A stretch of DNA of 64,000 nucleotides, taken from assembly GCF_000011905.1 (NCBI RefSeq), contig NC_002936.3, positions 992,001 to 1,056,000 on the forward strand, written 5' to 3'. How positions within the stretch are numbered: position 1 is the first letter of the stretch; every line of letters begins with the position of its first letter. Below, piece by piece: positions 1 to 32,117 of this stretch. A program made the translations under genes and the position numbers. The notes beneath the pieces are model-generated. The model made no database searches and was not told where the DNA came from. It saw only the letters and a program-made list of their open reading frames with translations. The DNA is from Dehalococcoides mccartyi 195. Lineage in GTDB: Bacteria > Chloroflexota > Dehalococcoidia > Dehalococcoidales > Dehalococcoidaceae.

Positions 1-254
1 TCCTCGAAGCGGGCGATGGTCTCGATCAGGCTGGAGAAGGTGGAGCTTATCGTGAATTCCTTCACTCCCAGCTTCCTGCAGTCGGAAAGGATCGTCTCGA
101 TGTCGTCGTCCCAAATGACCTCGGCGAAGTTCGGCAGGTCGTTTCCGGCTTCCTTGCTGTAAAGGTAGGCCTGTCCGAGTGTCCAGTGGCATCCGATCTC
201 GTCCCATTTCATTCCGGGCTTTGCGTTCTCAATGGCTTCGATTGTGTACTTCAT
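1..254 (-). CDS. Partial phage hypothetical protein (C-terminus outside window)
   Basis: Read leftward from an ATG at 254-252, the frame stays open for 84 codons to the window edge with no stop, so the gene is cut by the window. A strong SD (AAGGAGGA, 262-269) lies 7 bases upstream of the ATG. The N-terminus reads MKYTIEAIENAKPGMKWDE and is followed by an acidic, Trp-containing region. I recognise no domain. It is the last visible gene of the leftward phage block and carries upstream a 46-bp sequence (280-325) that recurs upstream of the gene at 779-1474, so the two may share a regulator. Confidence 0.6.
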   Translation of the reverse strand, partial: MKYTIEAIENAKPGMKWDEIGCHWTLGQAYLYSKEAGNDLPNFAEVIWDDDIETILSDCRKLGVKEFTISSTFSSLIETIARFE

Positions 255-15275: not shown

Positions 15276-16274
15276 GTGCTCTTTCATGAGATTGCTGGCG
15301 AATTGAAGACATACATGGATCCGACCGGACGCGGTGGCGATTTTGTAATTGCTCTGGTTGGCGACACTCTGCGCGATCCGATGACTGAGGAAGAAGAAAA
15401 GATGGCCGAGAATGACGAATTCAATCCTCTCGCCAGCCGGATGTCGATCAATATGCTTGATCAGATCCTTGAGGGTAAGAAGTTTATTTCAAAAGCTCGC
15501 GCAGGGCTGATCTGCAGTCGTTATGACGGACAGGATTTTGCAGAAGAAATTGATAACCTTTACGATGCCGACAAGGAGCACCTTCAGCAGTTCCTCCAGC
15601 GCCGTGGAATATTAGTGGAGATAGATGAGCTTGGGTCTGCCGTTCAGGACATTCTGAACCAGATTTTTCATGGGCTCTCCAAGGGAATACATGATGTCGA
15701 TATCACTCTGACCATTCATGATCCCAAGCCCAGTATCAAGAATCTGGCCGGTGACCGTATCTATTGCGAAAACGGAAAACTGTATATTGACGGCGACGTG
15801 ATTGAGCTTCCGATTAAGCTGAGCGACGCACAGATTTATGATTTTGAGGCAGACTACATATCTGCCCTTTGTGATGCATACGCCGAGGTTCTTTCTCGTG
15901 ATTCGGTAACGATGGACGACATTCCGACGCTGCCAAAGAAGTATCAGACGAACTTCTATGACCAGCGGAAGGCTTACCTGAGTGCTGAGAGTATTCAGAG
16001 ATCCATCAGCGAGGTGTATGAGGATGGAGAAAATCAGTTTGATATTTTGAAAAGCGATGCTTTTGATGGAATAAAGACTACCTACCTTGACGATTACGAC
16101 AATGGGTATAGGAGGCTGCTGGAAGTGTTAAAGAAGATTTCTGATGTCCAGCTCACGAAGTCGAAGCTGTCACTGATAAAGAATTTGATAGGAAATTTAG
16201 AAAGGCTTGGAATCGTTCACATACTGGTGAATGACAAGACGATAAAATCGTGGGTTGACCCATATGAGGAGTAA
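15276..16274 (+). CDS. Putative ABC-three-component system protein (effector position)
   Basis: A 332-residue protein from a GTG with AGGAGG 9 bases upstream. I recognise no catalytic motif. It is acidic and largely helical, with a middle segment (DELGSAVQDILNQIFHGLSKG) and a region KNLAGDRIYCENGKLYIDGD that looks like a small beta domain. Its place first in a run with a small winged-helix-like protein and an SMC-like ATPase matches ABC-three-component (ABC-3C) systems described by Aravind and colleagues, where the first protein pairs an effector with a dimerisation domain. That assignment rests on context. Confidence 0.6.
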   Translation: MLFHEIAGELKTYMDPTGRGGDFVIALVGDTLRDPMTEEEEKMAENDEFNPLASRMSINMLDQILEGKKFISKARAGLICSRYDGQDFAEEIDNLYDADKEHLQQFLQRRGILVEIDELGSAVQDILNQIFHGLSKGIHDVDITLTIHDPKPSIKNLAGDRIYCENGKLYIDGDVIELPIKLSDAQIYDFEADYISALCDAYAEVLSRDSVTMDDIPTLPKKYQTNFYDQRKAYLSAESIQRSISEVYEDGENQFDILKSDAFDGIKTTYLDDYDNGYRRLLEVLKKISDVQLTKSKLSLIKNLIGNLERLGIVHILVNDKTIKSWVDPYEE

Positions 16275-16710
16275 AGTATTTAACACGGTGTTCGAGAACA
16301 TGCTGAGGGTGCTGCTTCTGGCAGATACATTAGATGCTCCGGCAAACGTGGACAGGTTCGCAGCGCTGGACTTTATCTGTATTTACGGAAAGAAGTGCAA
16401 GGTGCTGGACAAGAACCTACATGGAGATAATGAATTCGGGTTTGCCGAATTTGCGAACAAGCGTGAAAAAATAACTGAGGCTATAAAGCTCTCAGTCAGG
16501 AATGATTTTATAAATGTAGAGCATACCGATCAGGGCTTTCTTTATAGCATCAACGACAGAGGACGCGAGGTCGTCCAGAACATTCAGTCCTCTTATTCGA
16601 AAGCCTATACAGTAGGAGCCAAAATTGTATGCAGGAAGTTTTCAGGTTTCACCGATGATGGTGTTTTACAGTACATAAGTGACCGGGCTACGGAGTCAAA
16701 GGAGGCGTAA
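16264..16710 (+). CDS. Putative ABC-3C middle component
   Basis: A 148-residue protein starting MRSKVFNTVFENMLRVLLLAD at an ATG that overlaps the previous gene by 11 bases. The order of predicted helices followed by a wing-like part (REKITEAIKLSVRNDFINVE, GFLYSINDRGREVVQNI) suggests a winged helix, as in the small middle components of ABC-3C systems. It ends 2 bases before the ATPase gene. Coupled translation with both neighbours supports a complex. Confidence 0.55.
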   Translation: MRSKVFNTVFENMLRVLLLADTLDAPANVDRFAALDFICIYGKKCKVLDKNLHGDNEFGFAEFANKREKITEAIKLSVRNDFINVEHTDQGFLYSINDRGREVVQNIQSSYSKAYTVGAKIVCRKFSGFTDDGVLQYISDRATESKEA

Positions 16711-16712
16711 GA

Positions 16713-18545
16713 ATGCAAAAGTTCATGATTGAAAAATTACGTGTCTCCGGAGCCGGAAAGATTGATGGTGTCGTTAATTTTACCGACGGATTAAACATCA
16801 TACAGGGCAGGTCAAACACAGGTAAAACGTGGATACTGAAATGCATCTATTATCTTTTCAGCTCTGACACAAGGCCTTATTCTCCACTGACTGGCTACAC
16901 AGATATCGAAGGTACTTTCCTTACGGAGAGGTATGGCCGGATCAAGATTTCCAGAACACTCGATGAGGAAAAGGTCATAGTTGAGGCAGAAAGTGAAGAA
17001 GTAGAAAACGGCGAGTATGACACAAATTATAAAAAGGATAATTCAAGATACCTGAACGATCTGTGGTTACGCATCATCGGTCTCAATGAGACGATTGAGG
17101 TTCCAAAGACTGCGCGTTATGCAAGAGAGAGAATGTCATGGACTAACATTGCCAGCGTTTTCTTTGCCGATGAAAATGAGATTGATAAATCTGAGTCGCT
17201 GGTGATTAAGGACTCTCGATATGAAACGCCTTTAATCGCTTCCTTATATTTTCTGCTGACCGGTGATTACAAAAAGGGTGTACCGGAAATCACAAAGCCG
17301 GAGGTGGCCACGGCAAAGAAAAAGGCCGTAGTCGATTATATTGACGAACAGGTCGCTGCCCTGACTGAAAAGCGTATCAGCTACATCATGCAGCTGGAAG
17401 AGCTGGAAGGTACGGATATCGATAAAGAGATGCAGAAGCTCTCCGAACGTATCCAAGAAGTGCAGCAGGAAATAAAAGACCTGATGGAGGAGAACACGGC
17501 CATTGTCAGGCAGGTCGCTGAATACCAGCAGGAGGATGCAAATTGTCGTGTCCTTGTTGATCGATATGAATCGCTCATAAGTCAATACAAGGCCGACCTG
17601 CAGAGACTCGACTTTATCTCGAAGGGTGAGCAGGCGGTCAAAGACCTCCCGTCGAATGGTGTCTGCCCGTTCTGTGGCGGAGAACTTCATCCGGAAGATG
17701 ACGATAGCTATGCTGAGGCAATCAATGCTGAAATAAAAAGGATTGCTTCTGAACTCGCAATAATTGTAGCCACAGAGGATAGTGTCCGGGATGAACAGAA
17801 AACGATACAAAAAAGCATCAAGGAATTGCAAGAGCGAAGATCTGAAATAAGCGCTGCTCTTGATGAAAAGAATCAAGAAATCCAGAACTGCCGTTATAAT
17901 ATGCAGCAGTTTAAGGATTACACGACGCTTCAAAATGGAATTGATTTCGTAAATGATCAGCTGGCCATTCTTGGTGACAAGAAGGTCTCCGAGCTAAAGA
18001 AAAAGAAAAATCCTCCTCTCTACCATGCAAAGCAGGAGTTTGAGGAGGAAGTAGGAACCGGCTTCAATACGATCCTTAACAGAATACTGAAGGAGTGCAA
18101 TTATCGTTCTGTGGGATATGCCAGCTGGGATTTTTCTACATTTGATATTCTTATGGATGGAGTTCCCAAGTCGGAAGATCAAGGCAAAGGATATCGGTCT
18201 TTTCTGAATTCAGTGGTTGCGCTGATGCTATATGAATACTTCAACAAAGATGATGTGTTTATAAAACCGGGCTTCCTAATGATAGATACACCATTGCTGG
18301 GCTTCGATGAAAATGAGGAAGGATTTGATGGCGAGACCATTAAGAACGGCTTGTATCAATATTTCCTTAATCATCAGGGTTCCGGACAGGTGATCTTAGT
18401 AGATAACCTTAATGTCATACCTCAAAACATAGATTTCAAAGCAAGAGGAGTTAATGTAATAACGTATCACAAGGACGAGAAGGACAGTCACGTATACGGT
18501 TTTATGCCGAGTTGGAGAAAAGATCTCCCGAAGGAGTCGAAATGA
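16713..18545 (+). CDS. SMC/Rad50-like ABC ATPase (ABC-3C type)
   Basis: A 610-residue ATPase. Walker A GRSNTGKT is at residues 32-39, followed by a long coiled coil (about 200-420) rich in E, Q and K. The coiled coil is split by VCPFCGGELH, a single CxxC like a zinc hook. The C-terminal lobe has a Walker B-like FLMIDTPLLGFDENE and VILVDNLNVIPQ. DUF3732-type ABC-3C ATPases share this design. It probably uses ATP to sense DNA ends or invading nucleic acid and to control the protein at 15276. Confidence 0.75.
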   Translation: MQKFMIEKLRVSGAGKIDGVVNFTDGLNIIQGRSNTGKTWILKCIYYLFSSDTRPYSPLTGYTDIEGTFLTERYGRIKISRTLDEEKVIVEAESEEVENGEYDTNYKKDNSRYLNDLWLRIIGLNETIEVPKTARYARERMSWTNIASVFFADENEIDKSESLVIKDSRYETPLIASLYFLLTGDYKKGVPEITKPEVATAKKKAVVDYIDEQVAALTEKRISYIMQLEELEGTDIDKEMQKLSERIQEVQQEIKDLMEENTAIVRQVAEYQQEDANCRVLVDRYESLISQYKADLQRLDFISKGEQAVKDLPSNGVCPFCGGELHPEDDDSYAEAINAEIKRIASELAIIVATEDSVRDEQKTIQKSIKELQERRSEISAALDEKNQEIQNCRYNMQQFKDYTTLQNGIDFVNDQLAILGDKKVSELKKKKNPPLYHAKQEFEEEVGTGFNTILNRILKECNYRSVGYASWDFSTFDILMDGVPKSEDQGKGYRSFLNSVVALMLYEYFNKDDVFIKPGFLMIDTPLLGFDENEEGFDGETIKNGLYQYFLNHQGSGQVILVDNLNVIPQNIDFKARGVNVITYHKDEKDSHVYGFMPSWRKDLPKESK

Positions 18546-18766
18546 AATTATCTTACAAAAAATTATGGGTGAAACTGGTAGAGCAGGATATGAAAAAAAC
18601 TGAATTTGCAAAGAAGGCAAAGATAAGCTCAGCCTCCCTCGCCAAGCTCGGTAAAGGTGCTAATGTCACGACAGATGTATTAGTGAAGATATGCGAAGAA
18701 CTGAAGTGTGACATTTCAGATATTTGCGAAATAGTGCCGGATGAGGCTGCGGAGGAAAAGAACTGA
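18542..18766 (+). CDS. XRE-family helix-turn-helix regulator
   Basis: A 74-residue Cro/CI-like protein starting MKLSYKKLWVKLVEQDMKK. The helix-turn-helix (TEFAKKAKISSASLAKLGKG, then NVTTDVLVKICEELKCDISDI) matches the short YozG-like XRE proteins. GGAG lies a few bases before the ATG, which overlaps the ATPase stop (ATGA). Its position inside the operon suggests autoregulation of the defence genes, perhaps through the palindromes at 15171-15260. Confidence 0.8.
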   Translation: MKLSYKKLWVKLVEQDMKKTEFAKKAKISSASLAKLGKGANVTTDVLVKICEELKCDISDICEIVPDEAAEEKN

Positions 18767-18791
18767 TCGTGGCATCCAAAGGAGTAAATCT

Positions 18792-21700
18792 ATGAAAATC
18801 TTTGACAATGTCACGGATATAGTCCGGGACGACTTAAAACAGACGGTGAAGCGTGGCAGCAAGGTTTCCATTGCCGCTGCATGCTTCTCCATGTACGCAT
18901 ATAAGGAGCTGAAGGCTCAACTGGAGCAGGTGGACGAGTTCCGCTTTATTTTCACGTCTCCGACCTTCATCAAGGAGAAGGCTGAGAAGCAAAAACGCGA
19001 ATTTTATATTCCTCGTCTCAGCCGTGAGAGCAGTTTATATGGTACAGAATTTGAAATCAAGCTGCGTAACGAAATGACGCAGAAGGCCATCGCCAAGGAG
19101 TGCGCGGATTGGATCAGACGTAAGGCGACTTTCAAGTCCAATGTTACCGGAGAGAACATGGGCGGCTTTATGACTGTCGCTGCGCCTGCAGAGGAAGTGG
19201 CCTATATGCCGATGAACGGTTTCACGACCGTAGACATCGGATGCGAACGTGGCAATAACAGCTACAACATGGTCAACCGTATGGAGGCTCCGTTCTCTAC
19301 GCAGTACATGCAGCTTTTCGAGTCGCTTTGGAATGACAAGGATAAGATGCAGGACGTAACTGATGTTATTATTTCCAATATCAGTACGGCCTACAATGAG
19401 AACTCACCGGAATTCATCTATTTCATGACGCTTTACAATGTTTTCAGTGAGTTCCTCGACGATATATCAGAGGACGTCCTCCCGAACGAAGCCACGGGTT
19501 TTAAGCAGAGTAAAATCTGGGGTATGCTATATGATTTCCAGCGAGATGCAGTGCTTGCCATCATCAACAAGCTGGAGAAGTACAATGGCTGCATCCTTGC
19601 TGACAGCGTCGGTCTTGGTAAGACCTTCACTGCGCTGGCTGTTATCAAATATTACGAGAACAGGAATAAGACTGTTCTTGTCCTTTGCCCGAAGAAGCTA
19701 TGCGAGAACTGGAATACATATAAGGATAACTACGTAAACAATCCAATAGCATCAGATCGCCTGAATTATGATGTTCTGTTCCATACGGACTTATCAAGGA
19801 ATGGCGGCACTTCAAATGGCCTTGATCTTGATCGCTTGAACTGGGGTAACTACGATCTTGTGGTCATCGACGAGTCCCACAACTTTAGGAATGGCGCAGG
19901 TACCCATGCCAACACGCAGGAGAACCGCTATGTGAAATTGATGGACAAGGTGATCCGTGCTGGCGTCAAGACGAAAGTGTTGATGCTGTCAGCGACACCG
20001 GTCAACAACAGATTCACCGACCTGAAAAATCAGCTGGCCATCGCCTATGAGGGGAACTCGGAATTTATCAATGAGAAGCTCGATACCAAAAAGCCGATTG
20101 ATGAGATATTCCGTCAGGCGCAGAAAGCCTTCAATGCATGGAGCAAGCTCGATCCGGAAGCAAGAACGACGGACGCGCTGCTTAGGACACTGGATTTCGA
20201 TTTCTTTGAAGTCCTCGATAGCGTGACGATTGCCCGCTCCAGAAAGCACATAGAGAAATATTACAACACGGAAGAAATCGGCAAATTCCCGCAACGCCTG
20301 AAGCCTATCTCAAGGCGTCCGAGCATGACCGATCTTTCGAGCGCCATAAACTATAACCAGATTTACGAGCAGTTGATGCAGCTGACGCTCGTGATCTATA
20401 CTCCGTCAAACTATATCTTTCCGAGCAAGATGTCGAAGTACATCGACCTCACGCACAACAAAGGAAATAACCTTACGCAGAAAGGCCGTGAGCAAGGCAT
20501 CCAGCGTTTGATGAGTATCAATCTCCTGAAGCGTCTGGAGAGCTCTGTTTATTCCTTCAATTTGACATTGAGCAGAATTCTGGCGCTGATAAAGAGCACC
20601 ATCTCAGCCATTGACAGCTTTGAGAAAAACGGAAAAGCTGATCTGGATATGTATGAGGCTTCTGACAGCGATTTTGATATTGATGACGAGAATAACGATT
20701 ACTTCACCGTCGGCAAAAAGGTAAAGATTGACCTTGCTGATATGGACTATAAAACATGGCGTGATGAGCTGCAGCGCGATGCGGATACGCTTGAGCTGCT
20801 GACGCTTATGATAGCAGACGTCACACCGGAGCATGACCTGAAGCTGCAGACCTTGCTTCATCTTCTGGATGACAAAATGAAGCATCCTATCAATGAGGGC
20901 AACAAGAAGGTGCTGATCTTCTCCGCGTTCTCCGATACGGCAGAGTATCTGTACGATCAGGTGTCTGCCTACATGAAATCAAACTATGGTCTGGATACAG
21001 CGGTTATTACTGGAAGCATTGACGGACGGACTACCATCAAAGGCCTGAAAGCCACGCTCAATAATGTGCTGACCTGCTTCTCGCCTATATCAAAGAGCCG
21101 TGATGTTCTGATGCCGGGCAGTACAAAGGAAATTGATGTCCTGATTGCTACGGACTGTATTTCCGAAGGTCAAAACCTGCAAGACTGCGATTATCTGGTG
21201 AACTATGACATTCACTGGAATCCGGTGCGCATCATCCAGCGCTTCGGTCGAATTGACCGTATCGGCAGCAGGAACCTGTATATTCAGCTGGTGAACTTCT
21301 GGCCGGACATGACGCTGGACGATTACATCAACCTTAAATCTCGCGTGGAGACCAGAATGAAAATCTCCGTTATGACCTCGACCGGAGACGATGACCTGAT
21401 CAATCCAGAGGAAAAAGGCGACCTCGAATACAGAAAGCAGCAGCTGAAGCGTCTGCAGGAAGAGGTCGTGGATATTGAAGATATGTCCACGGGTATTTCC
21501 ATCATGGATCTGGGACTAAATGAGTTCCGGCTTGACCTGCTGGAATATATAAAGACGCATGACCTTAGTACTAAGCCGAAGGGACTGCACGCGGTAGTTC
21601 CGGCCACGGAGGAGAATCCGGAGGGCGTGATCTTTGTCCTACGGAACATCAATAACAGTATCAACATTGATAACCAGAATCGCATTCACCCGTTCTACAT

Positions 21701-22019
21701 GGTGTATATCGGTGTAGACGGAGAAATTGTCTGCGACTACTTGAATCCGAAGAAGCTGCTGGACACCGTCCGGTTGCTGTGCCGAGGAAAGTCTGAACCG
21801 ATTTTGACACTGTGCGAGAAATTCAACAAGGAAACTGATGATGGAAGGAACATGGAGGAAGTGTCGCAGCTTCTCTCCGATGCGATAAATTCCATTATTG
21901 ATGTAAAAGAAGAAAGCGATATTGACAGCCTGTTCTCCGCTGGCGGGACTTCTGCCCTGATGTCGGAGATCAACGGGCTGGATGACTTTGAGCTTATTTG
22001 CTTCTTAGTAGTGAAATGA
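18792..22019 (+). CDS. Helicase with PLD-like N-terminus and SNF2 core
   Basis: A 1075-residue protein starting MKIFDNVTDIVRDDL, preceded by AAAGGAG. Residues 1 to about 200 resemble a phospholipase D-like domain (SIAAACFSMYAYKEL), but I see no clear HxK(x4)D motif, so it may be inactive. The SF2 core follows: ILADSVGLGKTFTAL near residue 280, VVIDESHNFRN, LSATPVNN, and C-terminal ATDCISEGQNLQ plus IIQRFGRIDRIGS. Helicases of this design stand beside DUF4391, Mod and Res genes in many bacteria and probably translocate on foreign DNA. The C-terminal part after residue 850 is unassigned. Confidence 0.8.
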   Translation: MKIFDNVTDIVRDDLKQTVKRGSKVSIAAACFSMYAYKELKAQLEQVDEFRFIFTSPTFIKEKAEKQKREFYIPRLSRESSLYGTEFEIKLRNEMTQKAIAKECADWIRRKATFKSNVTGENMGGFMTVAAPAEEVAYMPMNGFTTVDIGCERGNNSYNMVNRMEAPFSTQYMQLFESLWNDKDKMQDVTDVIISNISTAYNENSPEFIYFMTLYNVFSEFLDDISEDVLPNEATGFKQSKIWGMLYDFQRDAVLAIINKLEKYNGCILADSVGLGKTFTALAVIKYYENRNKTVLVLCPKKLCENWNTYKDNYVNNPIASDRLNYDVLFHTDLSRNGGTSNGLDLDRLNWGNYDLVVIDESHNFRNGAGTHANTQENRYVKLMDKVIRAGVKTKVLMLSATPVNNRFTDLKNQLAIAYEGNSEFINEKLDTKKPIDEIFRQAQKAFNAWSKLDPEARTTDALLRTLDFDFFEVLDSVTIARSRKHIEKYYNTEEIGKFPQRLKPISRRPSMTDLSSAINYNQIYEQLMQLTLVIYTPSNYIFPSKMSKYIDLTHNKGNNLTQKGREQGIQRLMSINLLKRLESSVYSFNLTLSRILALIKSTISAIDSFEKNGKADLDMYEASDSDFDIDDENNDYFTVGKKVKIDLADMDYKTWRDELQRDADTLELLTLMIADVTPEHDLKLQTLLHLLDDKMKHPINEGNKKVLIFSAFSDTAEYLYDQVSAYMKSNYGLDTAVITGSIDGRTTIKGLKATLNNVLTCFSPISKSRDVLMPGSTKEIDVLIATDCISEGQNLQDCDYLVNYDIHWNPVRIIQRFGRIDRIGSRNLYIQLVNFWPDMTLDDYINLKSRVETRMKISVMTSTGDDDLINPEEKGDLEYRKQQLKRLQEEVVDIEDMSTGISIMDLGLNEFRLDLLEYIKTHDLSTKPKGLHAVVPATEENPEGVIFVLRNINNSINIDNQNRIHPFYMVYIGVDGEIVCDYLNPKKLLDTVRLLCRGKSEPILTLCEKFNKETDDGRNMEEVSQLLSDAINSIIDVKEESDIDSLFSAGGTSALMSEINGLDDFELICFLVVK

Positions 22020-22032
22020 GGAGGTGCATCCG

Positions 22033-22701
22033 GTGATTGGATTACCGAAGAGCACGGAGTTTAACCGGCGCATCCCGAAGCAGAAGTTCTATGAGAACAT
22101 TTCTGTATCGCCGACGTTAAAGCGAGTGTTCATAGATCAGATCAAGGTGATCTACTGGCGCAACAAAGTGGCCACTACGACCATGAATCTTGCCGCCGGT
22201 GAAACCGTAACAGAGCTGGAGATATTTGAGGTAAAGCTAAACGGGCAGCAGCTTGAAGAATCCGTCCTCCGGCAGATTGATAAAGAGATACCTTATCACA
22301 TTCTGTTCCTACTGGAATACGATGGAAAGTATCAAGCGTGGACGGCCTACAAAGAGGCTGCGGCCTCCGGGTCAAATGCTTTTAAGGTAGGCACCTACTA
22401 TCACACAGATTGGCTCCCGGAAGATGAGCTGCCTCTGAAGGTAGAAGGCCTGAGTGTCGATAAGGTTTATGAGAATTTTGTGCGGCAGATCGCGGGCGAT
22501 GCGCTCCGCGCCGAGGACGGAAAGACTGAATCGCTGAAGGAATCCGTAGAACGCGATACCCGCCGTCAGGAGCTGGAAAAGCAGATTGCAGCACTTCAAG
22601 CGAAAGTCCGCAAGGAAAAGCAGCTGAACAAGCAGGTGCAGCTGAACGCAGAGCTAAAGAAACTAAAAAAAGAACTGGAGGTGCTGGGTAATGGATCATG
22701 A
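22033..22701 (+). CDS. DUF4391 protein
   Basis: A 222-residue protein from a GTG at 22033 with AGGAGG 8 bases upstream. The N-terminus IGLPKSTEFNRRIPKQ and the core IKVIYWRNKVATTTMNLAAGE match DUF4391, a family of unknown function that accompanies helicase-Mod-Res clusters. The C-terminal 55 residues form a charged coiled coil (LEKQIAALQAKVRKEKQ), suited to holding together helicase and methylase subunits. It overlaps the next gene by 11 bases. Confidence 0.75.
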   Translation: MIGLPKSTEFNRRIPKQKFYENISVSPTLKRVFIDQIKVIYWRNKVATTTMNLAAGETVTELEIFEVKLNGQQLEESVLRQIDKEIPYHILFLLEYDGKYQAWTAYKEAAASGSNAFKVGTYYHTDWLPEDELPLKVEGLSVDKVYENFVRQIAGDALRAEDGKTESLKESVERDTRRQELEKQIAALQAKVRKEKQLNKQVQLNAELKKLKKELEVLGNGS

Positions 22702-23770
22702 TAAAGAAGTTCGAAAAATCCTTGCAGGAAGAACTTCTTCTGGCACGATGAGGAGCAGAGAAAGTAATACTGTTGAGTTCAAACAGTCTTTCAATAAAGG
22801 AAATACTGCAGCTTATGCTAAAACGATGGCTGCTTATGCAAATAACAGCGGAGGGTATATTATCTTCGGCATCACAGACTCGCCAAGAAAAATCGTAGGC
22901 CTTAAAAATGATAACTTTGAAAACTTGAAGCAGGAAGTATTTACTGACGCCATAAACGCCCTTTTCTCACCTGCTATAGAATGGGAAATGGGGGCAATTG
23001 TTCTGGAAGAAGAAAAAGAGGATGATAACGGTGTCATTATTACAGAGCGAAAGAAAATCGGCTGGATATATACAATCGAGTCTGAAATAAAGCCCGTGAT
23101 CGCTCAAAAGGATAACAGCAGCGAAAGTATAACAGCTGGAGATGTATTTTATCGTTATCGGGCGAGAAACGGAAAAATAAAGCCCGCCGAGATGGAGCGG
23201 ATTATATCGGATCGCATAAATCGAGAACGAGAAAATTTGCTTCGCGTCCTTGAGGTGATACGCAAGAGCGGGACTGCCAATCTGGGTATTGTAAATTATA
23301 GCGACGGAAAGTTTTCAACTCCGTATGGTGTGGATGTTGCCTTTGATAGAAAACTGGTCACTCAGGTTTTGAAGAAAGCAAAGTTCATAAAGGAAGGGAG
23401 CTTCAACGAGACGGATGGTATTCCGGTTATAAAAGTCACTGGTAATATTGATCTGGCAGAGGAAGTTCCCGTCCCTGAAGGGAATCCAGACGATACTCAT
23501 CCGTATATTCAAAAGCAGATGGCTGAAAAACTGGGAATCAGCACGCAAGATTTATACGCACTCATTTGGTACTTCAAGATGAAGGAATCCAAGAAATATC
23601 ATCTGGAAATAACCGTCTCCAAGAGTGGAAAGACACACAAGTTTTCAAACTTTGCGCTCGAATTCCTACAAGAGAAACTAAACGAGCTGAAGGGCAATGA
23701 TGCAGAGTTTGAAAAAATTAGAATAGCTTATAAGAACAGAAACAAGCAGGAGGAAAGAGCTAATGGATAA
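22691..23770 (+). CDS. AlbA_2/Schlafen-type putative DNA-binding protein
   Basis: A 359-residue protein. Residues 25-160 form an AlbA_2 (Schlafen-like divergent AAA_4) domain: SNTVEFKQSFNKGN, then AYANNSGGYIIFGITDSP, and the C-terminal YRYRARNGKIKPAE. The rest is a helical region with a possible winged helix (TANLGIVNYSDGKFSTPYG). AlbA_2 proteins are linked to nucleic-acid binding and some act as RNases in defence. GGAGG precedes the ATG. Overlaps with both neighbours show it belongs to the operon and is not a casual insertion. Confidence 0.7.
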   Translation: MDHDKEVRKILAGRTSSGTMRSRESNTVEFKQSFNKGNTAAYAKTMAAYANNSGGYIIFGITDSPRKIVGLKNDNFENLKQEVFTDAINALFSPAIEWEMGAIVLEEEKEDDNGVIITERKKIGWIYTIESEIKPVIAQKDNSSESITAGDVFYRYRARNGKIKPAEMERIISDRINRERENLLRVLEVIRKSGTANLGIVNYSDGKFSTPYGVDVAFDRKLVTQVLKKAKFIKEGSFNETDGIPVIKVTGNIDLAEEVPVPEGNPDDTHPYIQKQMAEKLGISTQDLYALIWYFKMKESKKYHLEITVSKSGKTHKFSNFALEFLQEKLNELKGNDAEFEKIRIAYKNRNKQEERANG

Positions 23771-25526
23771 AATGAGAATGGAGTCAGTTGACATGACCGA
23801 GAAAAACATCGACAGGATTGCTGCCCTGTTTCCGAATTGCATCACCGAGACCGTAGACGAGGAGCGCAGCACTCCCGACAAAAAGGTCTACAAGAAGGCG
23901 GTTAACTTTGAGCTTCTCCGGCAGATGCTATCCGGTGATGTGCTGGAGGGCGACGAGGCCTATGAGTTTACATGGGTTGGTAAGAAAGCGGCCATAGTCG
24001 AAGCCAATAAGCCCATCCGCAAGACTCTGCGTCCGTGCCCAGAGGAGAGTGTAAATTGGGACTCCACAGAGAATTTGTATATCGAAGGTGACAATCTCGA
24101 AGTCCTCAAGCTCATACAGGAGAGCTATATGGGGAAAGTGAAACTAATCTTTATTGATCCGCCATACAATACGGGCAGCGATTTCATCTATGCAGATGAC
24201 TTTGCAGTTGGCTCAGCGGAGTACAGTGATGAAATTGGTGAGGTGGATGCAGACGGGAATAGACTTTTTAAGAATACAGATTCCAATGGGAGGTTCCATT
24301 CTGATTGGTGCTCGATGATGTATTCAAGGCTCATGCTCGCCAGAAATCTCCTTACAGACGACGGAAGCATTTTTATAAGTATTGATTTTAATGAAGTCGA
24401 AAACCTGAAGAAGATAATGGATGAGGTTTTTGGAGCAGAGAATTTTCAACGAGAAATTGTCTGGAGAATAGGGTGGCTCTCAGGTTATAAAACAATGGCT
24501 CCGAATTTCATCCGAAATCATGACACTATTCTGTTTTATTCGAAGAACTCAAGTAAAATTGAGTTCATAAAGAAATATATTGAGAATAAGGATTTCAAGC
24601 CTTTGCTTAAGAAAGATGCAAAGGTGACGGCAAAGCTGAAAAGCCTCGGTTTAAGCGACGAACAGCAGAAGGAACTTCTGGAATTTATTAATCATGGAAA
24701 TCGACCAGAAAGATATCCGATAGAGGATACATGGAATTCGAATGAGTATGATGATTTGAACAGCATTGCAATCGTCTCTTTTTCAGGAGAGAAAATCTCG
24801 AAAATTCTCGATGTTGATCAGGATTTTAAAGGACAGAAGTCAGTGAAAATGCTGATGAGAATTATTGAGGCAACGACAAAAGAAGATGACATCGTGATGG
24901 ATTTCTTTTCCGGAACCGGATCAACGGCTCACGCTGTCATGCAGATGAATGCTGAAGATGGTTGTCATAGGAAGTATATTATGGTGCAGCTTCCTGAACC
25001 GTGCGAAGATGGCGGCGCTGCTAAAGAAGCCGGATATGAGAATATCTGCGAGATTGGAAAGGAGCGAATTCGCAGGATTGGGCAGCGCATCAATGAATCT
25101 GCACCGTTGTTCGATTTGGATACTGGATTCAGAGTGTTCAAGGTTGCAGAAAGTAATATGAATGATGTTTATTATTCTGCTGGGGAATACAATCAGGGAA
25201 TGCTTTCGATGTTGGAGTCCAATGTGAAATCGGATCGTTCTGACCTCGATCTGCTATTTGGTTGCCTGCTTGAATGGGGATTGCCGCTCTCGATGCCGTA
25301 CACGTCAGAGCAGATTGAAGGCTGCACAGTTCACACATACAACGATGGCGATCTGATTGCCTGCTTTGATGAGAACATTCCGGATTCTGTTATTAAAACT
25401 ATCGCCAAGCGTCAGCCGCTCCGCGCAGTTTTTCGCGATAGCAGCTTCGATGGAAGCCCGGCAAAGATCAACGTAGGGGAGATTTTCAAAATGTTGGCAC
25501 CGGATACGAGGATCAAGGTGATTTAA
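23763..25526 (+). CDS. Type III restriction-modification methyltransferase (Mod-like)
   Basis: A 587-residue beta-class DNA methyltransferase. The catalytic motif IDPPYNTGSDF is at residues 131-141 and the SAM-binding motif DFFSGTGSTAHA is near residue 380-390, the order and spacing typical of type III Mod proteins. A region between them would hold target recognition. It probably adds N6-methyladenine to host DNA so that the Res protein downstream spares it. Length fits the family. It overlaps the previous gene by 8 bases. Confidence 0.9.
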   Translation: MDKMRMESVDMTEKNIDRIAALFPNCITETVDEERSTPDKKVYKKAVNFELLRQMLSGDVLEGDEAYEFTWVGKKAAIVEANKPIRKTLRPCPEESVNWDSTENLYIEGDNLEVLKLIQESYMGKVKLIFIDPPYNTGSDFIYADDFAVGSAEYSDEIGEVDADGNRLFKNTDSNGRFHSDWCSMMYSRLMLARNLLTDDGSIFISIDFNEVENLKKIMDEVFGAENFQREIVWRIGWLSGYKTMAPNFIRNHDTILFYSKNSSKIEFIKKYIENKDFKPLLKKDAKVTAKLKSLGLSDEQQKELLEFINHGNRPERYPIEDTWNSNEYDDLNSIAIVSFSGEKISKILDVDQDFKGQKSVKMLMRIIEATTKEDDIVMDFFSGTGSTAHAVMQMNAEDGCHRKYIMVQLPEPCEDGGAAKEAGYENICEIGKERIRRIGQRINESAPLFDLDTGFRVFKVAESNMNDVYYSAGEYNQGMLSMLESNVKSDRSDLDLLFGCLLEWGLPLSMPYTSEQIEGCTVHTYNDGDLIACFDENIPDSVIKTIAKRQPLRAVFRDSSFDGSPAKINVGEIFKMLAPDTRIKVI

Positions 25527-25543
25527 ACGAGGAGGTGCCTATG

Positions 25544-26026
25544 ATGTGGGTGATACGTGCCGGACAGAACTCCGGATTCTATGACAAATATTTGAGAACG
25601 AGCCGTGTTTATATTCCTTGGGACGGGTATAAGTTCGACTTGTCATCAATCAAAGAGCGAGCCGATTTTAGAGCCGTTGTTGAAAAAGAAAAAAAGATGG
25701 ATAACCGGACTTCAGTCTCTAATTGGGCGGGGCAGCTCTTTACCTTTACACAGGAAATACAAACGGGCGACTATGTGCTGATTCCATCAAAAGGAAGCAG
25801 AAACTACTGCCTTGCCAAGATTACGGGCGCGTACAGCTTTGATGAAAAAGAGCCGGATAAACTGTATCATTCACGTCCAATAGAGATTTTACTGAAGGAT
25901 ATACCAAGAGACATTTTTTCACAGTCAGTTATCTATTCTCTGGGTGCTTTCAGAACGATTTTTAGGGCAAAGCATGAGGATGAAATTATGAATACTATAA
26001 AGAAATGGAAGGAGGCGCACAGATGA
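25544..26026 (+). CDS. Stand-alone EVE/PUA-like domain protein
   Basis: A 160-residue protein starting MWVIRAGQNSGFYDKYL. I aligned it by eye with the N-terminal domain of the Mrr protein at 29119. Shared points are the W at the start, QEIQTGDYVLIPSK against HEVQIGDYVVFPSK, a following GAYSF/GDYFF motif, and DIPRDIFSQSVIYSLGAF against HIPRLSFSQGALYEVGSA. This pattern resembles PUA-superfamily readers (EVE-like) fused to restriction nucleases, which bind modified bases. GGAGG lies 8 bases before the ATG at 25544. The end overlaps the res start. Confidence 0.65.
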   Translation: MWVIRAGQNSGFYDKYLRTSRVYIPWDGYKFDLSSIKERADFRAVVEKEKKMDNRTSVSNWAGQLFTFTQEIQTGDYVLIPSKGSRNYCLAKITGAYSFDEKEPDKLYHSRPIEILLKDIPRDIFSQSVIYSLGAFRTIFRAKHEDEIMNTIKKWKEAHR

Positions 26027-29000
26027 GAATTCAATACAAACATCAAAAATTCCAAGCTGATGCTGCCAAGGCGGTCGTGGATGTTTTTGCAGGCCAGCCT
26101 TATCTGACGCCTACCTATATGATGGATAGAGGAACCGGTATGTTTCAGATTGGATTGAATGAGGAACGTGATTATACCGGTTGGAGTAACCAGAAGATTG
26201 TGCCGGAGCTTTCCGATCATCTGATTCTGGAGCATATACAGAAAATTCAGCGTACAAATCAAATCCAGCCGTCTTCCAAGCTGGAAGGCCGCAGCGACGG
26301 TTTCAATCTCACCATCGAGATGGAGACCGGTGTTGGCAAGACTTATACCTATATCAAGACAATGTATGAGCTGAACCGCGCCTATGGCTGGAGTAAGTTC
26401 ATCATTGTGGTTCCGAGTATCGCTATACGTGAGGGCGTGTATAAGTCCTTCCAGATGACGCAAGAGCATTTCGCAGAAGAGTACGGAAAAAAGATCCGCT
26501 TCTTTATCTATAATTCTGCACAGCTCACGGAGATTGACCGCTTTGCTTCGGATAGCTCTATTAATGTCATGATCATCAATTCGCAGGCGTTCAATGCCAA
26601 GGGCAAGGATGCAAGGCGTATTTACATGAAGCTGGACGAGTTCCGCAGCCGTCGCCCGATTGACATCATTGCGAAGACGAATCCGATTCTGATCATCGAC
26701 GAGCCACAGTCTGTGGAAGGTAAGCAGACAAAGGAGCGCCTGAAGGAATTCCAGCCGCTGCTGACGCTGCGTTATTCCGCTACGCATAAGTCAGACAGCA
26801 TTTACAATATGATATATCGGCTGGACGCTATGGAAGCATATAACAAGCGTCTGGTTAAGAAGATCGCCGTTAAGGGTATCACCGAGACCGGCAGCACGGC
26901 CACGGACAGCTATCTCTATCTGGAAGGTCTGAATCTTTCCAAGGGTGATCCTACTGCTACGCTGCAGTTTGAGGTCAAGATGGCCAGTGGCACTCCAAAG
27001 AAAAAGAGCCGCGTTGTGAAAATCGGAGATAATCTCTACGACTATTCCGGCGGGCTGGAAGAATACAAAAACGGCTTTGTGGTCAAGCAGATCGATGGCC
27101 GGGACGACTCCGTGGAATTCCTGAACGGCATCAAGATTTATGCCGGTGACGTGATGGGCGCGGTCGATGAAGACCAGCTGCGCCGTATTCAGATCAGAGA
27201 GACAATCTTGTCGCATATTCAGAGAGAACGTCAGCTCTTCTATAAGGGCATCAAGGTGTTGTCCCTGTTCTTTATTGACGAGGTTGCAAACTACAGAGAG
27301 TATGATGCTGCAGGTCAGCCGGTAAATGGAAAGTACGCCAGAATGTTTGAAGAGGAGTACGAGGACATCATCAGCAATATGCAGCTTAGTATAGGCGAGG
27401 ATGAATACATCAAATACCTGCAGAGCATCAAGGCTTCTAAGACGCATGCGGGATATTTCTCAGTGGACGGAAAAGGCAAGATGATCAATTCCAAGGTCGG
27501 TCGTAAAGAAACGACCTCAGACGATGTGAGCGCCTATGAGCTGATTATGAAGAACAAGGAGCTGCTTCTTGATCGTGATCCGAAGAAGTCTCCGGTGCGC
27601 TTCATCTTTTCACACTCCGCTCTGCGTGAAGGATGGGACAATCCTAATGTGTTCCAGATCTGTACGCTGAAGCAGTCCAGCAGTGATGTTCGTAAGCGTC
27701 AGGAAGTAGGCCGTGGCCTGCGTCTTTGCGTCAATCAGGACGGTGAGCGTATGGATACCAATGCGCTCGGAAATGACGTTCATAACGTGAATGTTCTGAC
27801 GGTTATTGCCAGCGAGAGCTACGATTCCTTTGCCAAAGGCCTGCAGACCGAGATGGCTGACGCCGTTGCTGATAGACCGCGTGCGGTTACCATCGATCTC
27901 TTTGTCGGAAAAGTAATCAAGGACGACAAGGGTAATGAGCAGGTTATCGATCAGGATACTGCTTCCGCAATCCACTACGATATGATCGTTAACGGTTATA
28001 TCGACCGTAAGGGCGTTCTGACAGATAAGTATTACGAGGATAAGGCAAACGGAGAAATCAAGGTCGCAGAGGAAGTGGCTGATTCCGCAGCCTCTGTTAT
28101 TGAGATTGTTGACTCCATTTACGATGCTCGTAGCATGCAGCCTGAGAATGCCCGCAGCAATAACGTCGAGCTTCAGGTCGATGAAGAGAAACTGGCTATG
28201 CCGGAATTCAAAGCGCTGTGGTCAAAGATCAATGCTAAGTCCGTATATGTTGTTGATTTTGATACCGACGAGCTGATCAGGAAGTCCATCGCCTCCCTTG
28301 ATGCCAAGCTGCGTGTATCGAAGATTTACTTCCGCGTAGAGTCCGGTGCAATGGATAACATCAAGTCGAAGGAAGAGCTTGTATCCGGAGCCTCCTTCGT
28401 AAAAGAAGAGTCCGCCAGCTACGGTGTGACCATCACAGCGAACTCGAATGTAAAGTATGACCTGATTGGGAAACTGGTGGACGAGACCGGGCTTACCCGT
28501 AAGGCGGTCATTGCAATCCTTCAGGGAATCAAGCCGTTTGTGTTCGACCAGTTTAAGGATAATCCGGAGGAGTTTATCGTCAAGGCCGCCGCGCTGATCA
28601 ATGACGAGAAAGCCACGGCCATTATCGAGCACATTACCTACGACGTTCTGGATGAGCATTATGGCATGGATGTTTTCACCGATCCCACCATCAAGGGCAA
28701 GCTGGGCGTTAATGCGATGAAGGCAAAGAAGCACCTGTACGATCACATCGTTTACGATTCATCGAACGAGCGCGACTTTGCTACAGACCTTGATACAAAC
28801 ACCGATGTTGCGGTTTACGTGAAGCTGCCGGATGGATTCTATATTTCCACTCCTGTCGGCCACTACAATCCCGACTGGGCAATTGCCTTCTACGAGGGCA
28901 AGGTAAAGCACATATACTTCGTGGCAGAGACGAAGGGCTCCATGAGCTCGATGCAGCTGCGGCTGATTGAGGAGTCCAAGATTCACTGCGCGAGAGAACA

Positions 29001-29082
29001 CTTTAAGGCCATTTCCAATGGGAATGTGGTATACGACGTAGTCGATAGCTATAAGTCCCTATTGGAGAAGGTAATGAAATAA
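26023..29082 (+). CDS. Type III restriction enzyme Res subunit-like helicase-nuclease
   Basis: A 1019-residue protein starting MRIQYKHQKFQADAAKAVV. SF2 motifs are Walker A METGVGKTYTY near residue 105, IIDEPQSVEG, LRYSATHK and SALREGWDNPNVFQ with QEVGRGLRL. The C-terminal region holds a PD-(D/E)xK nuclease: HYNPDWAIAFYEG followed by YFVAETKGSM (Asp...Glu-x-Lys). These are the hallmarks of type III Res subunits, which cut DNA after two head-to-head target sites are met. Partner of the Mod at 23763. ATGA overlap with the upstream gene. Confidence 0.88.
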   Translation: MRIQYKHQKFQADAAKAVVDVFAGQPYLTPTYMMDRGTGMFQIGLNEERDYTGWSNQKIVPELSDHLILEHIQKIQRTNQIQPSSKLEGRSDGFNLTIEMETGVGKTYTYIKTMYELNRAYGWSKFIIVVPSIAIREGVYKSFQMTQEHFAEEYGKKIRFFIYNSAQLTEIDRFASDSSINVMIINSQAFNAKGKDARRIYMKLDEFRSRRPIDIIAKTNPILIIDEPQSVEGKQTKERLKEFQPLLTLRYSATHKSDSIYNMIYRLDAMEAYNKRLVKKIAVKGITETGSTATDSYLYLEGLNLSKGDPTATLQFEVKMASGTPKKKSRVVKIGDNLYDYSGGLEEYKNGFVVKQIDGRDDSVEFLNGIKIYAGDVMGAVDEDQLRRIQIRETILSHIQRERQLFYKGIKVLSLFFIDEVANYREYDAAGQPVNGKYARMFEEEYEDIISNMQLSIGEDEYIKYLQSIKASKTHAGYFSVDGKGKMINSKVGRKETTSDDVSAYELIMKNKELLLDRDPKKSPVRFIFSHSALREGWDNPNVFQICTLKQSSSDVRKRQEVGRGLRLCVNQDGERMDTNALGNDVHNVNVLTVIASESYDSFAKGLQTEMADAVADRPRAVTIDLFVGKVIKDDKGNEQVIDQDTASAIHYDMIVNGYIDRKGVLTDKYYEDKANGEIKVAEEVADSAASVIEIVDSIYDARSMQPENARSNNVELQVDEEKLAMPEFKALWSKINAKSVYVVDFDTDELIRKSIASLDAKLRVSKIYFRVESGAMDNIKSKEELVSGASFVKEESASYGVTITANSNVKYDLIGKLVDETGLTRKAVIAILQGIKPFVFDQFKDNPEEFIVKAAALINDEKATAIIEHITYDVLDEHYGMDVFTDPTIKGKLGVNAMKAKKHLYDHIVYDSSNERDFATDLDTNTDVAVYVKLPDGFYISTPVGHYNPDWAIAFYEGKVKHIYFVAETKGSMSSMQLRLIEESKIHCAREHFKAISNGNVVYDVVDSYKSLLEKVMK

Positions 29083-29118
29083 AAAACCAGCGAATACTGG
29101 TATTAATTGGAGGGCATT

Positions 29119-30120
29119 ATGGACGGAAATTCTGATGAAAAAAAGGTCTGGGGTATTCATACCCAGAATGACAGTCTGTTCTTAAATAAGGACTTGATCG
29201 CGATTGGCTGGAGAGATTTTGGCGATCTTACAAAGGTTGAGGCAAACCGAGATGCCTTTAAGGCTCATTATATAGAGGCTTACCCGGATGCTAAGAAAGG
29301 CCAAATTGCAAATGGTGCCGGTATGCTCTACAGGTTTATCCATGAGGTGCAGATCGGCGATTATGTGGTTTTTCCGTCCAAAACTGATAGGAAGATAAAT
29401 ATTGGTACCGTTGAAGGCGATTACTTCTTTGAGGATAACGACGGAGAGTATGTTCAGCGTAGAAAAGTAAAATGGCTTAAGCATATACCGCGTCTTAGCT
29501 TCTCACAGGGTGCGCTATATGAAGTCGGCTCTGCGATGTCTTTCTTTTCGGTGAAGAACTATGCTGACGAGTTTTTATCAGCACTTGATAAAGACTTTAA
29601 GAAATCGATAACATCCGACGATTCAGAGGATGAAAGTGTCGGAGCGACCGCAGAGGATATCGTTGAGAGCACGAAGGACTTTATTTTGAAAGAGCTGAGT
29701 CGCCAGCTGAAGGGATATGATCTTGAGGCCTTTGTGGCCGATCTGCTCCGGGCAATGGGATACCGGACGACGGTTTCTCCGCAGGGTGGAGATAGCGGCA
29801 TTGATATCACAGCATATAAAGATGAGCTTCCTCCGCGTATTCTTGTTCAGGTCAAGAGTCAGGATAGCGACATAAAGGAAACTACCATCCAGTCCCTCAA
29901 AGGTGCAATGCGCGAGGGAGATTATGGCTTGTTCGTGACGCTTTCTAATTATACGAAGAATGCTCAGAAGTATCTGGATAGCACGCCGATCATCCGTGGT
30001 ATAAATGGCACAGAGTTGGTAGACCTAATCCTCAAATACTACGAAGATTTGAGCGAGAAATACAGAAAGATGATCCCTCTGAAGATGGTTTATATTCCGG
30101 TGCCGAAAGAGGATGCGTAA
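29119..30120 (+). CDS. EVE-like domain fused to Mrr-type restriction nuclease
   Basis: A 333-residue protein. Residues 1 to about 150 are the EVE/PUA-like domain shared with the gene at 25544. An acidic linker (DDSEDESVGATAED) leads to an Mrr_cat nuclease: LEAFVADLLRAMGYRTT, then SPQGGDSGIDITAYKD, then ILVQVKSQ, with Asp and Gln-x-Lys in the expected order. Mrr enzymes cut modified DNA; a reader domain fused to one suggests recognition of modified phage DNA. SD GGAGGG lies 4-5 bases before the ATG at 29119. Confidence 0.82.
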   Translation: MDGNSDEKKVWGIHTQNDSLFLNKDLIAIGWRDFGDLTKVEANRDAFKAHYIEAYPDAKKGQIANGAGMLYRFIHEVQIGDYVVFPSKTDRKINIGTVEGDYFFEDNDGEYVQRRKVKWLKHIPRLSFSQGALYEVGSAMSFFSVKNYADEFLSALDKDFKKSITSDDSEDESVGATAEDIVESTKDFILKELSRQLKGYDLEAFVADLLRAMGYRTTVSPQGGDSGIDITAYKDELPPRILVQVKSQDSDIKETTIQSLKGAMREGDYGLFVTLSNYTKNAQKYLDSTPIIRGINGTELVDLILKYYEDLSEKYRKMIPLKMVYIPVPKEDA

Positions 30121-30840
30121 ATGTACCAATTTGATGAGCCTCTTATCAGAGGCACAATGCTAAAAAGAAAAAGTCAGTTCACTGCTGTCGTTCAGATTGA
30201 CGGCGAGGAGCTGATCGCACATATACCGACAACAAACCGGATCGGAGACGTGGAGAATAAGAATCTACCTTGTCTGCTTTCTTATCATCCAGATCCGAAG
30301 CGAAAGCTGCATTATGACATTGAGGCCGTGCTTCTGTCGGATGATGACAACTGGGTGGGCATCAATCAGATTCTCTCCAACAGGCTGGTGGAGCATTTCT
30401 TTCGGGAGCATGAGCTGGATAAAATTGTGGCGGAGTATGACGATATACAAAGAGAGGTCAAGCTCGGTATCTCCAAGCTGGACTTTAAGGTCGGTGACAC
30501 ATACCTTGAGGTGAAGACACCACTCACTACCATCAATGTGAAATACGGCGAGACCATCAAGACGTTGCCGCCGAAGCCGTTCTCATCGACAGACCGGATG
30601 GTCAAGCACGTGAACGAGCTGGCAGGCTCTCTTTCGGAGCACGAGAGAGCGATCTTCCTGCAGGTGTATCAGTATCGCATCACCGAACGCAAGGAGCGAC
30701 TGCGCTCGACGCATTATGAGGAGGTCTCTGAGACGATCCACAGGGCTGCCGAACAGGGCGTGGAGTTCTGGGAAATCCAGATGGACTTTCGACCGGAGGG
30801 TGTGAGTCTTTATAATGTGGAGAGAAGTACAGATTTATAG
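30121..30840 (+). CDS. SfsA-like PD-(D/E)xK protein in a defence operon
   Basis: A 239-residue protein starting one base after the mrr stop. It follows the SfsA pattern: EPLIRGTMLKRKSQFTAVV (OB-like part), AHIPTTNRIG, DNWVGINQILSNRLVEHFF, then REVKLGISKLDFKVG and YLEVKTPLTTINV, giving the Asp...Glu-x-Lys of SfsA nucleases. Classical SfsA was named for a role in sugar fermentation; its fold is an OB domain plus a PD-(D/E)xK nuclease. The classical C-terminal FPDAVT motif is not visible. The context, after Mrr, argues for a nuclease or DNA-binding role. Confidence 0.65.
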   Translation: MYQFDEPLIRGTMLKRKSQFTAVVQIDGEELIAHIPTTNRIGDVENKNLPCLLSYHPDPKRKLHYDIEAVLLSDDDNWVGINQILSNRLVEHFFREHELDKIVAEYDDIQREVKLGISKLDFKVGDTYLEVKTPLTTINVKYGETIKTLPPKPFSSTDRMVKHVNELAGSLSEHERAIFLQVYQYRITERKERLRSTHYEEVSETIHRAAEQGVEFWEIQMDFRPEGVSLYNVERSTDL

Positions 30841-30851
30841 GAGGCAGCAGT

Positions 30852-31262
30852 ATGCAGCACGAATGCAAAATAACAGTATTAGAAACGAAAGTCTTTCCAG
30901 AGCTGCAAGAAAAATATCTGGCTAATCCGAAGTCCGGCGCCTGTCCTTTCTTTAAGGCAGGAGATGAATTTATCCTGAAGAGAACGCCGGAGCAGGATGA
31001 CTTTTACCATCTGATGGACGGAAAATTCTGCGGTGAAGCGTGGGATGCCATCAGCCGGTATGTTTATACGGCATTGCAGGGCGGCTCCATAATGAAGAGC
31101 TGGACAAACGATGACCGTATGATGATTGCCTGCTGTAATGACGGTACCCAGCCTGTGATCTTCAAGATAGAACGGATCGATATTCCGGAGAACGAGGAAG
31201 AGCGCGAGTGGCTGGAGAAGCAGAACTTTAAGAACACCGTAGATGATGCCTATACGGGGTGA
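30852..31262 (+). CDS. TIGR04076 family protein
   Basis: A 136-residue protein with the TIGR04076 pattern: CKITVLETKVFPELQEKYL, CPFFKAGDEFIL, FCGEAWDAISRYVY, GGSIMKSW, MMIACCNDGTQPVIFKIERI. The family's function is unknown; conserved cysteines suggest metal or redox chemistry. It starts 11 bases after the SfsA-like gene with AGGAGG-like GGAGGCAGC upstream, so it is co-transcribed with the defence genes, but may be unrelated cargo. Confidence 0.7.
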   Translation: MQHECKITVLETKVFPELQEKYLANPKSGACPFFKAGDEFILKRTPEQDDFYHLMDGKFCGEAWDAISRYVYTALQGGSIMKSWTNDDRMMIACCNDGTQPVIFKIERIDIPENEEEREWLEKQNFKNTVDDAYTG

Positions 31263-31271
31263 GGACATAAC

Positions 31272-31745
31272 ATGCAGATAATCACTTATCAGGAAAAATA
31301 CAAACAGCAGATCATCGACCTGATTCTGGGCATCCAGAACAATGAGGCAAAGATAAATCTTTCGCTTGAGGAACAACCTGATCTGCTGGACATACCCACC
31401 TGCTATGAAAAGGATGGCGGCGAGTTCTGGCTGGCCGTTGAGGGTGATACGCTCATTGGCACCTTGGCGCTGATGAATAAAGGAAACGGTAATGCGGTTC
31501 TTAAGAAGGGCTTTGTTAGAGCGGACTATAGAAAACAAGGTATTCTTGGAAAGCTTTATGCGACGCTTCAGGAGTTTGCAAAGGAGCAGGGACTGACTAC
31601 CTTTGTTTTTGATACTCCATCCGTGGCCACGAACTGTCATAGCTTTTTTGAGAAGCGTGGCTATCGGCGAATAACAAAATATGAGCTTCCTTTCCCGTAT
31701 GAATACCCAGACAGGGATTCGTATCTGTACATGATCCAGCAGTAG
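31272..31745 (+). CDS. GNAT acetyltransferase
   Basis: A 157-residue GNAT-fold protein. Visible motifs are GEFWLAVEGDTLIGTLALM (strands 2-4), then KKGFVRADYRKQGILGKLY (the acetyl-CoA-binding R-x-x-G-x-G/A region) and CHSFFEKRGYRRITKYELP (typical C-terminal block). The substrate is not known. Last gene of the rightward array, 9 bases after TIGR04076. A role in modifying a toxin or protein is possible but not shown. Confidence 0.75.
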   Translation: MQIITYQEKYKQQIIDLILGIQNNEAKINLSLEEQPDLLDIPTCYEKDGGEFWLAVEGDTLIGTLALMNKGNGNAVLKKGFVRADYRKQGILGKLYATLQEFAKEQGLTTFVFDTPSVATNCHSFFEKRGYRRITKYELPFPYEYPDRDSYLYMIQQ

Positions 31746-31852: not shown

Positions 31853-32023
31853 CATCGACCTGTTTCCGAGAACGTCCGCGGTCGAGAAAATGGCAATTTT
31901 GAGGTCAAAAAAGCCGTGGATTTATTTCCGAGAACGAACGGACTGATTTTCCGGGGTTTTGACATCCATCTGGAGCAATCGAGCCACGTTGAAACGCTGG
32001 CTTTACTAAAATGCAGGTCATAG
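31853..32023 (+). other. rumA-like attachment-site scar at the island/chromosome junction
   Basis: Two frames here encode pieces of the RumA/RlmD C-terminus. One reads IDLFPRTSAVEKMAIL (about 31853-31900). The other reads FEVKKAVDLFPRT, then 11 unrelated codons, then EQSSHVETLALLKCRS and a TAG at 32021-32023. RumA-type methyltransferases end in D-L/M-F-P-x-T-x-H-V-E. TTTCCGAGAACG is repeated at about 31862 and 31926. The 3' end of rumA is a known target of integrative elements, so the simplest reading is a recombined att site, with the last block being the host rumA tail. Confidence 0.5.
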
Positions 32024-32117
32024 TGCTTGGCCGGAAATAAATCCCAAATAGGTTTTGATAATAAGACGCACTGCCTGATTGCAGATAAAAATATCCGGTA
32101 CGGGAGCAAACAAAATC

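Follow-up and report, generated by a model that had tools for sequence, protein, structure and literature searches.

Does an SfsA-like gene placed directly behind an mrr-like gene in Dehalococcoides mccartyi 195 encode a component of the restriction operon that it follows, or a protein with its own history and function? The gene lies in a 64,000-nucleotide stretch of contig NC_002936.3 (positions 992,001 to 1,056,000, forward strand), referred to here as the window. According to the original prediction, an SfsA-type nuclease fold had been recruited into the operon, and a diverged version of it beside Mrr would be either a defence nuclease or a DNA sensor of a new type. The genome is a single contig of 1,469,720 bases, in which 19 reductive-dehalogenase matches were found, and the gene under study is the sole SfsA-family gene found in it. 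Table 1 presents the features of the locus.

In 2005, PMC1189080 drew attention to a D. ethenogenes cluster in which two COG4127 genes are accompanied by a member of the SfsA family. That cluster is very probably the present locus, because the organism is the same, the window holds one full COG4127 gene (29107-30120) and one that consists of the N-terminal part only (25535-26026), and the genome has a single SfsA. The neighbourhood of sfsA and restriction genes in this organism has therefore very probably been on record since then. The passages of PMC1189080 that concern the cluster speak neither of a separate clade, nor of a prophage, nor of a lack of conserved linkage. In the literature on SfsA in defence, the only other item found was PMC2743648, where an Argonaute-linked protein contains a domain with weak likeness to SfsA.

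Table 1. Features of the sfsA-like locus, in positions of the window or residues of the sfsA-like protein
Feature	Position	Strand	Remarks
Restriction operon: SNF2-type helicase, DUF4391, AlbA_2, type III Mod, COG4127 N-terminal-only protein, type III Res	18741-29082	+	Upstream
mrr-like gene (COG4127/PDC-S02: N-terminal domain and Mrr catalytic domain)	29107-30120	+	Pfam, PADLOC
sfsA-like gene, 239 aa	30121-30840	+	ORF open; Pfam and structure matches
OB domain, N-terminal (PF17746)	residues ~14-81		Pfam
PD-(D/E)XK nuclease domain (PF03749)	residues ~85-226		Pfam
Codon of Glu112, first catalytic acid	30454-30456	+	Invariant in 79 SfsA proteins
Codon of Asp121 (S-K-L-D-F)	30481-30483	+	Invariant in 79 SfsA proteins
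Codons of Glu130-Val131-Lys132 (E-V-K)	30508-30516	+	Glu130 and Lys132 invariant
TIGR04076-family gene	30852-31262	+	11 bases after the sfsA-like gene
GNAT acetyltransferase gene	31272-31745	+	Last gene before the element's right end
Right junction: 3' end of rumA-like gene rejoined to host sequence	31984-32010		Boundary known to ~15 bases

Family, fold and active site

The product of the gene is a real, divergent SfsA-family protein and, as a member of that family, an ordinary one. Both of its domains score above their Pfam cut-offs, the N-terminal OB domain with 46.7 bits (cut-off 25) and the nuclease domain with 65.9 bits (cut-off 22.8), which places it in the SfsA family (COG1489), and the best match of its sequence among solved structures is E. 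coli SfsA (4dap, E 8.5e-12). No match was obtained with the PADLOC defence-family models. An AlphaFold model built with 49 clade members (pLDDT 90.3, pTM 0.88) was compared with solved structures and has the SfsA fold over its whole length. The closest structure is again 4dap (Z 22.3, 220 residues, 2.4 Å, 26% identity), followed by P. furiosus SfsA bound to DNA (4dav, Z 21.7, 216 residues), which shares the fold at an identity of 18%; the next structure is EndoMS with a Z of 5.6. The likeness to SfsA recognized in the original prediction is borne out by these results, and a position outside the SfsA/PD-(D/E)xK fold, which would have told against it, is contradicted by the structure comparison.

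The PD-(D/E)xK residues that had been proposed for the protein hold up in the sequence alignment. E112, D121, E130 and K132, the E ... D ... E-x-K set, are unchanged across 79 aligned SfsA proteins, classical and divergent, and align to the catalytic motif given for SfsA in a passage of PMC1189080. As in other PD-(D/E)XK enzymes, these residues may bind a divalent metal and cut the backbone of DNA or RNA that the OB domain would grip. The protein is probably an active SfsA-type nuclease. E. coli SfsA itself is summarised in PMC1189080 as a non-specific DNA-binding protein tied to sugar fermentation, and the window protein could likewise do no more than bind nucleic acid and regulate expression, leaving the nuclease site unused on DNA. 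This alternative is unlikely, although slightly less so than the others considered below: simple binding would not need all catalytic residues to be invariant in both SfsA clades.

A second clade of SfsA proteins

While the protein shares with E. coli SfsA the two-domain OB and PD-(D/E)XK architecture and the E/D/E-V-K site, it differs from classical SfsA on three counts. Its TIGR00230 (SfsA equivalog) score of 101.1 bits is under the cut-off of 126.45, so that the protein belongs to the family without being among those that NCBI names on the strength of this model. The FPDAVT/FPDAPT block that follows E-V-K in the alignment is missing, as had been noticed earlier; all 28 classical SfsA proteins have the Asp of this block, whereas the position is mostly Phe in 51 proteins that carry a W-x-G-I-N-Q motif. 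Finally, in a maximum-likelihood tree of the 79 proteins, the WxGINQ proteins, the window protein among them, are split from classical SfsA at 100/100.

To survey this group, an alignment of three sequences (the window protein and members from a Rhizobium plasmid and phage SP-15) was searched against the genomes of 84,980 species. It returned 91 relatives, of which 80 were kept, from Bacillota, Thermoplasmatota, Methanobrevibacter, Holosporaceae, Verrucomicrobia, Paenibacillus, Patescibacteria and others. The W-x-G-I-N-Q motif is invariant in the 51 clade proteins. Both kinds of SfsA occur together in 9 of 16 named genomes tested, and the gene is rare: within one sampled family close matches to the window protein (E 1e-60 or better) were found in 4 of 397 genomes. 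The WxGINQ proteins form a deep second SfsA clade with a broad but patchy distribution over bacteria and archaea, and the window gene is a member of this clade rather than a diverged copy made for defence. The papers searched contain no description of the clade, and membership in it makes the protein notable.

Two members have neighbourhoods of their own interest. On the Rhizobium plasmid (L032, 14983-15738) the gene lies near SIR2, DUF87, SbcD and AbiE-type genes, and in a Rickettsiales metagenome-assembled genome (L093, 9674-11623) the WxGINQ SfsA is contained in an ORF of 649 residues, possibly a fusion, right behind an ssb-like gene.

Location in a prophage

Comparison with relatives places the gene in a mobile element. 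Two other species of the genus have only the right flank, from window position 32052 on, and the sequence that adjoins this flank in the sister species is found here at genome positions 962,709-968,263, about 56 kb to the left. The two flanks are contiguous in genome G049 and about 56 kb apart in this genome, so the element extends from 968.3 kb of the genome (the left flank ends at 968,263) to about 31990 of the window. Its integration point is the 3' end of a rumA-like methyltransferase gene. A perfect direct repeat was sought as a mark of the element's ends and discarded, as none of at least 14 bases is present between the two flank stretches; the boundary is therefore drawn from the comparison with relatives.

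A serine recombinase is encoded near the left end, phage replication genes occupy 0.8-13.7 kb of the window, and these are followed in order by an ABC-three-component (ABC-3C) system, the restriction operon, the sfsA-like gene, the TIGR04076 and GNAT genes, and the right junction. The ABC-3C system (15276-18545), which combines CTD6 and MC2 domains with an ATPase, sits between the replication genes and the restriction operon. The element is a serine-recombinase prophage of about 56 kb and of clostridial look, whose site is empty in two sister species. Since the sfsA-like gene lies inside an element missing from the same site in relatives, as prophage cargo should, it came into the genome with the prophage.

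Given this location, the beneficiary of the gene could be the prophage or a phage instead of the host; its product might, for instance, be a nuclease that takes part in phage DNA metabolism or is directed at competing elements. Such a role would agree with the presence of a same-clade member in Bacillus phage SP-15, the 'sugar fermentation stimulation protein' SP15_191, which is phage-borne, 37% identical to the window protein and, unlike the window gene, has no restriction genes annotated nearby. However, the PHROG families gave no match to the sfsA-like protein, and the gene belongs to the cargo region, which lies at the attachment end and away from the replication genes. In scans of viral contigs, nothing matched the single protein as query, and SP-15 was the sole match to the clade alignment; a general phage origin was set aside on these grounds, and service to the phage is accordingly improbable.

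Association with restriction genes

As the original prediction had it, the sfsA-like gene starts right after mrr: the stop codon (TAA) of mrr occupies 30118-30120 and the ATG follows from 30121, a gap of 0 bases. Because the start codon abuts this stop, the protein would be translated from the restriction transcript. A junction of this kind could also arise if a gene were inserted after mrr, and on its own it is no proof of a joint function. The block upstream of mrr, with a C3a139-like SNF2-type helicase, DUF4391, AlbA_2/Schlafen and type III Mod and Res, has the look of a composite operon for defence that goes beyond an ordinary type III system. Its protein at 25535-26026, between Mod and Res, is clearly matched by PADLOC PDC-S02 and has no match in Pfam.

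Were the sfsA-like protein a working part of this operon, it might act as a second nuclease or clean up DNA ends after type III or Mrr cuts, and be kept for that purpose. The junction, the location on one strand together with the seven preceding genes of the block, and the intact active site are consistent with this possibility, as are two properties of its nearest relative described below. The neighbourhoods of relatives argue the other way. At the 82 loci of SfsA relatives, searches with single-sequence queries over up to 10 kb around each match (some contigs being 3-8 kb long) turned up no homologue of Mrr, Res or Mod from the window. Neighbours of the relatives were also identified by direct reading and by Pfam and PADLOC scans. 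The nearest genes are mostly housekeeping or metabolic. The PADLOC scan of nearest neighbours revealed one clear restriction gene, at locus L036, and its remaining matches are generic (WYL regulators, AAA ATPases, and a few MADS, PDC and other models), so a general defence neighbourhood for the WxGINQ clade was rejected.

Among the 82 loci, three kinds of neighbour recur, namely a small cupin gene (12 loci, mostly adjoining), a metallo-beta-lactamase-type gene (7 loci) and TetR regulators. The cupin gene adjoins the WxGINQ SfsA on either side at L037, L038, L042, L048, L052 and L058, and further adjoining cases are L060, L064, L067, L074 and L075; this neighbourhood is seen in Bacillota, Atopobiaceae and Thermoplasmata.

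Viewed from the side of Mrr, the pairing was not found either. Close Mrr homologues (65-83% identical) have type I restriction genes as neighbours in Butyrivibrio plasmid pCY186, a Subdoligranulum plasmid and the genome stretches L136 and L139, the neighbours in the last three having been read from the sequence, and others lie elsewhere; no SfsA gene was seen next to any of them, and the 11 Mrr loci examined outside the window have none. In the sampled family, close Mrr occurs in 6 of 397 genomes, with no overlap with the 4 that carry close SfsA. The genomes of the ten nearest SfsA relatives gave no match to the window Mrr in a search run without a positive control. Mrr and SfsA as a conserved pair, looked for at the 82 SfsA loci, at plasmid and phage Mrr homologues and in the 397 genomes of one family, was thus discarded, and the mrr-like gene is probably not a functional partner of the sfsA-like gene. 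With SfsA relatives lacking Mrr and type III genes, and close Mrr relatives lacking SfsA, present evidence does not support the claim that the gene is a new kind of defence nuclease or DNA sensor. A defence role in this one operon can still be entertained, but the protein is about as improbable a working part of the operon as it is a servant of the phage.

The nearest relative

The nearest relative is encoded by an uncultured Erysipelotrichaceae, hRUG900 (L036), and is 98% identical in protein and 90.6% in DNA. Between the two sfsA-like genes dN is 0.0099 and dS is 0.52; the resulting dN/dS of 0.019, which would also fit a working part of the operon, indicates that the protein is under purifying selection. 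The two DNAs are similar from within about 20 bases ahead of the start codon as far as the TIGR04076 gene, inside which the L036 contig breaks off. The two loci differ in the preceding gene, which in L036 is GmrSD-like (GmrSD N-domain) instead of mrr.

In the window and in L036, which have the most similar copies known, the gene immediately follows restriction genes, although their type differs, and a defence link is therefore possible in this small sub-branch. It has the least probable of the readings as its extension, namely that the sub-branch is an interchangeable add-on nuclease in which the sfsA-TIGR04076 pair moves between restriction operons, type III/Mrr in the window and GmrSD-type in L036, and helps to destroy cut invader DNA.

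Proposed role and significance

The explanation favored here, which is likely on the whole, is that the gene encodes an SfsA-type nuclease of the WxGINQ clade, with its activity being predicted, and that it is carried as prophage cargo behind a restriction operon and acts alone. A clostridial prophage may have captured the sfsA-TIGR04076 cassette behind its restriction operon, and the protein would then work independently of the restriction system instead of being one of its subunits. The analysis settles the family, the fold, the conserved site, selection, the prophage location and the absence of conserved linkage with Mrr or type III genes.

The biological role of SfsA is still unclear. In the second clade of the family, which is inherited patchily, the active site is intact; members of this clade can share a genome with the classical protein and are also present on phages and plasmids. 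Comparing the two clades is therefore a natural route to the function of SfsA nucleases.
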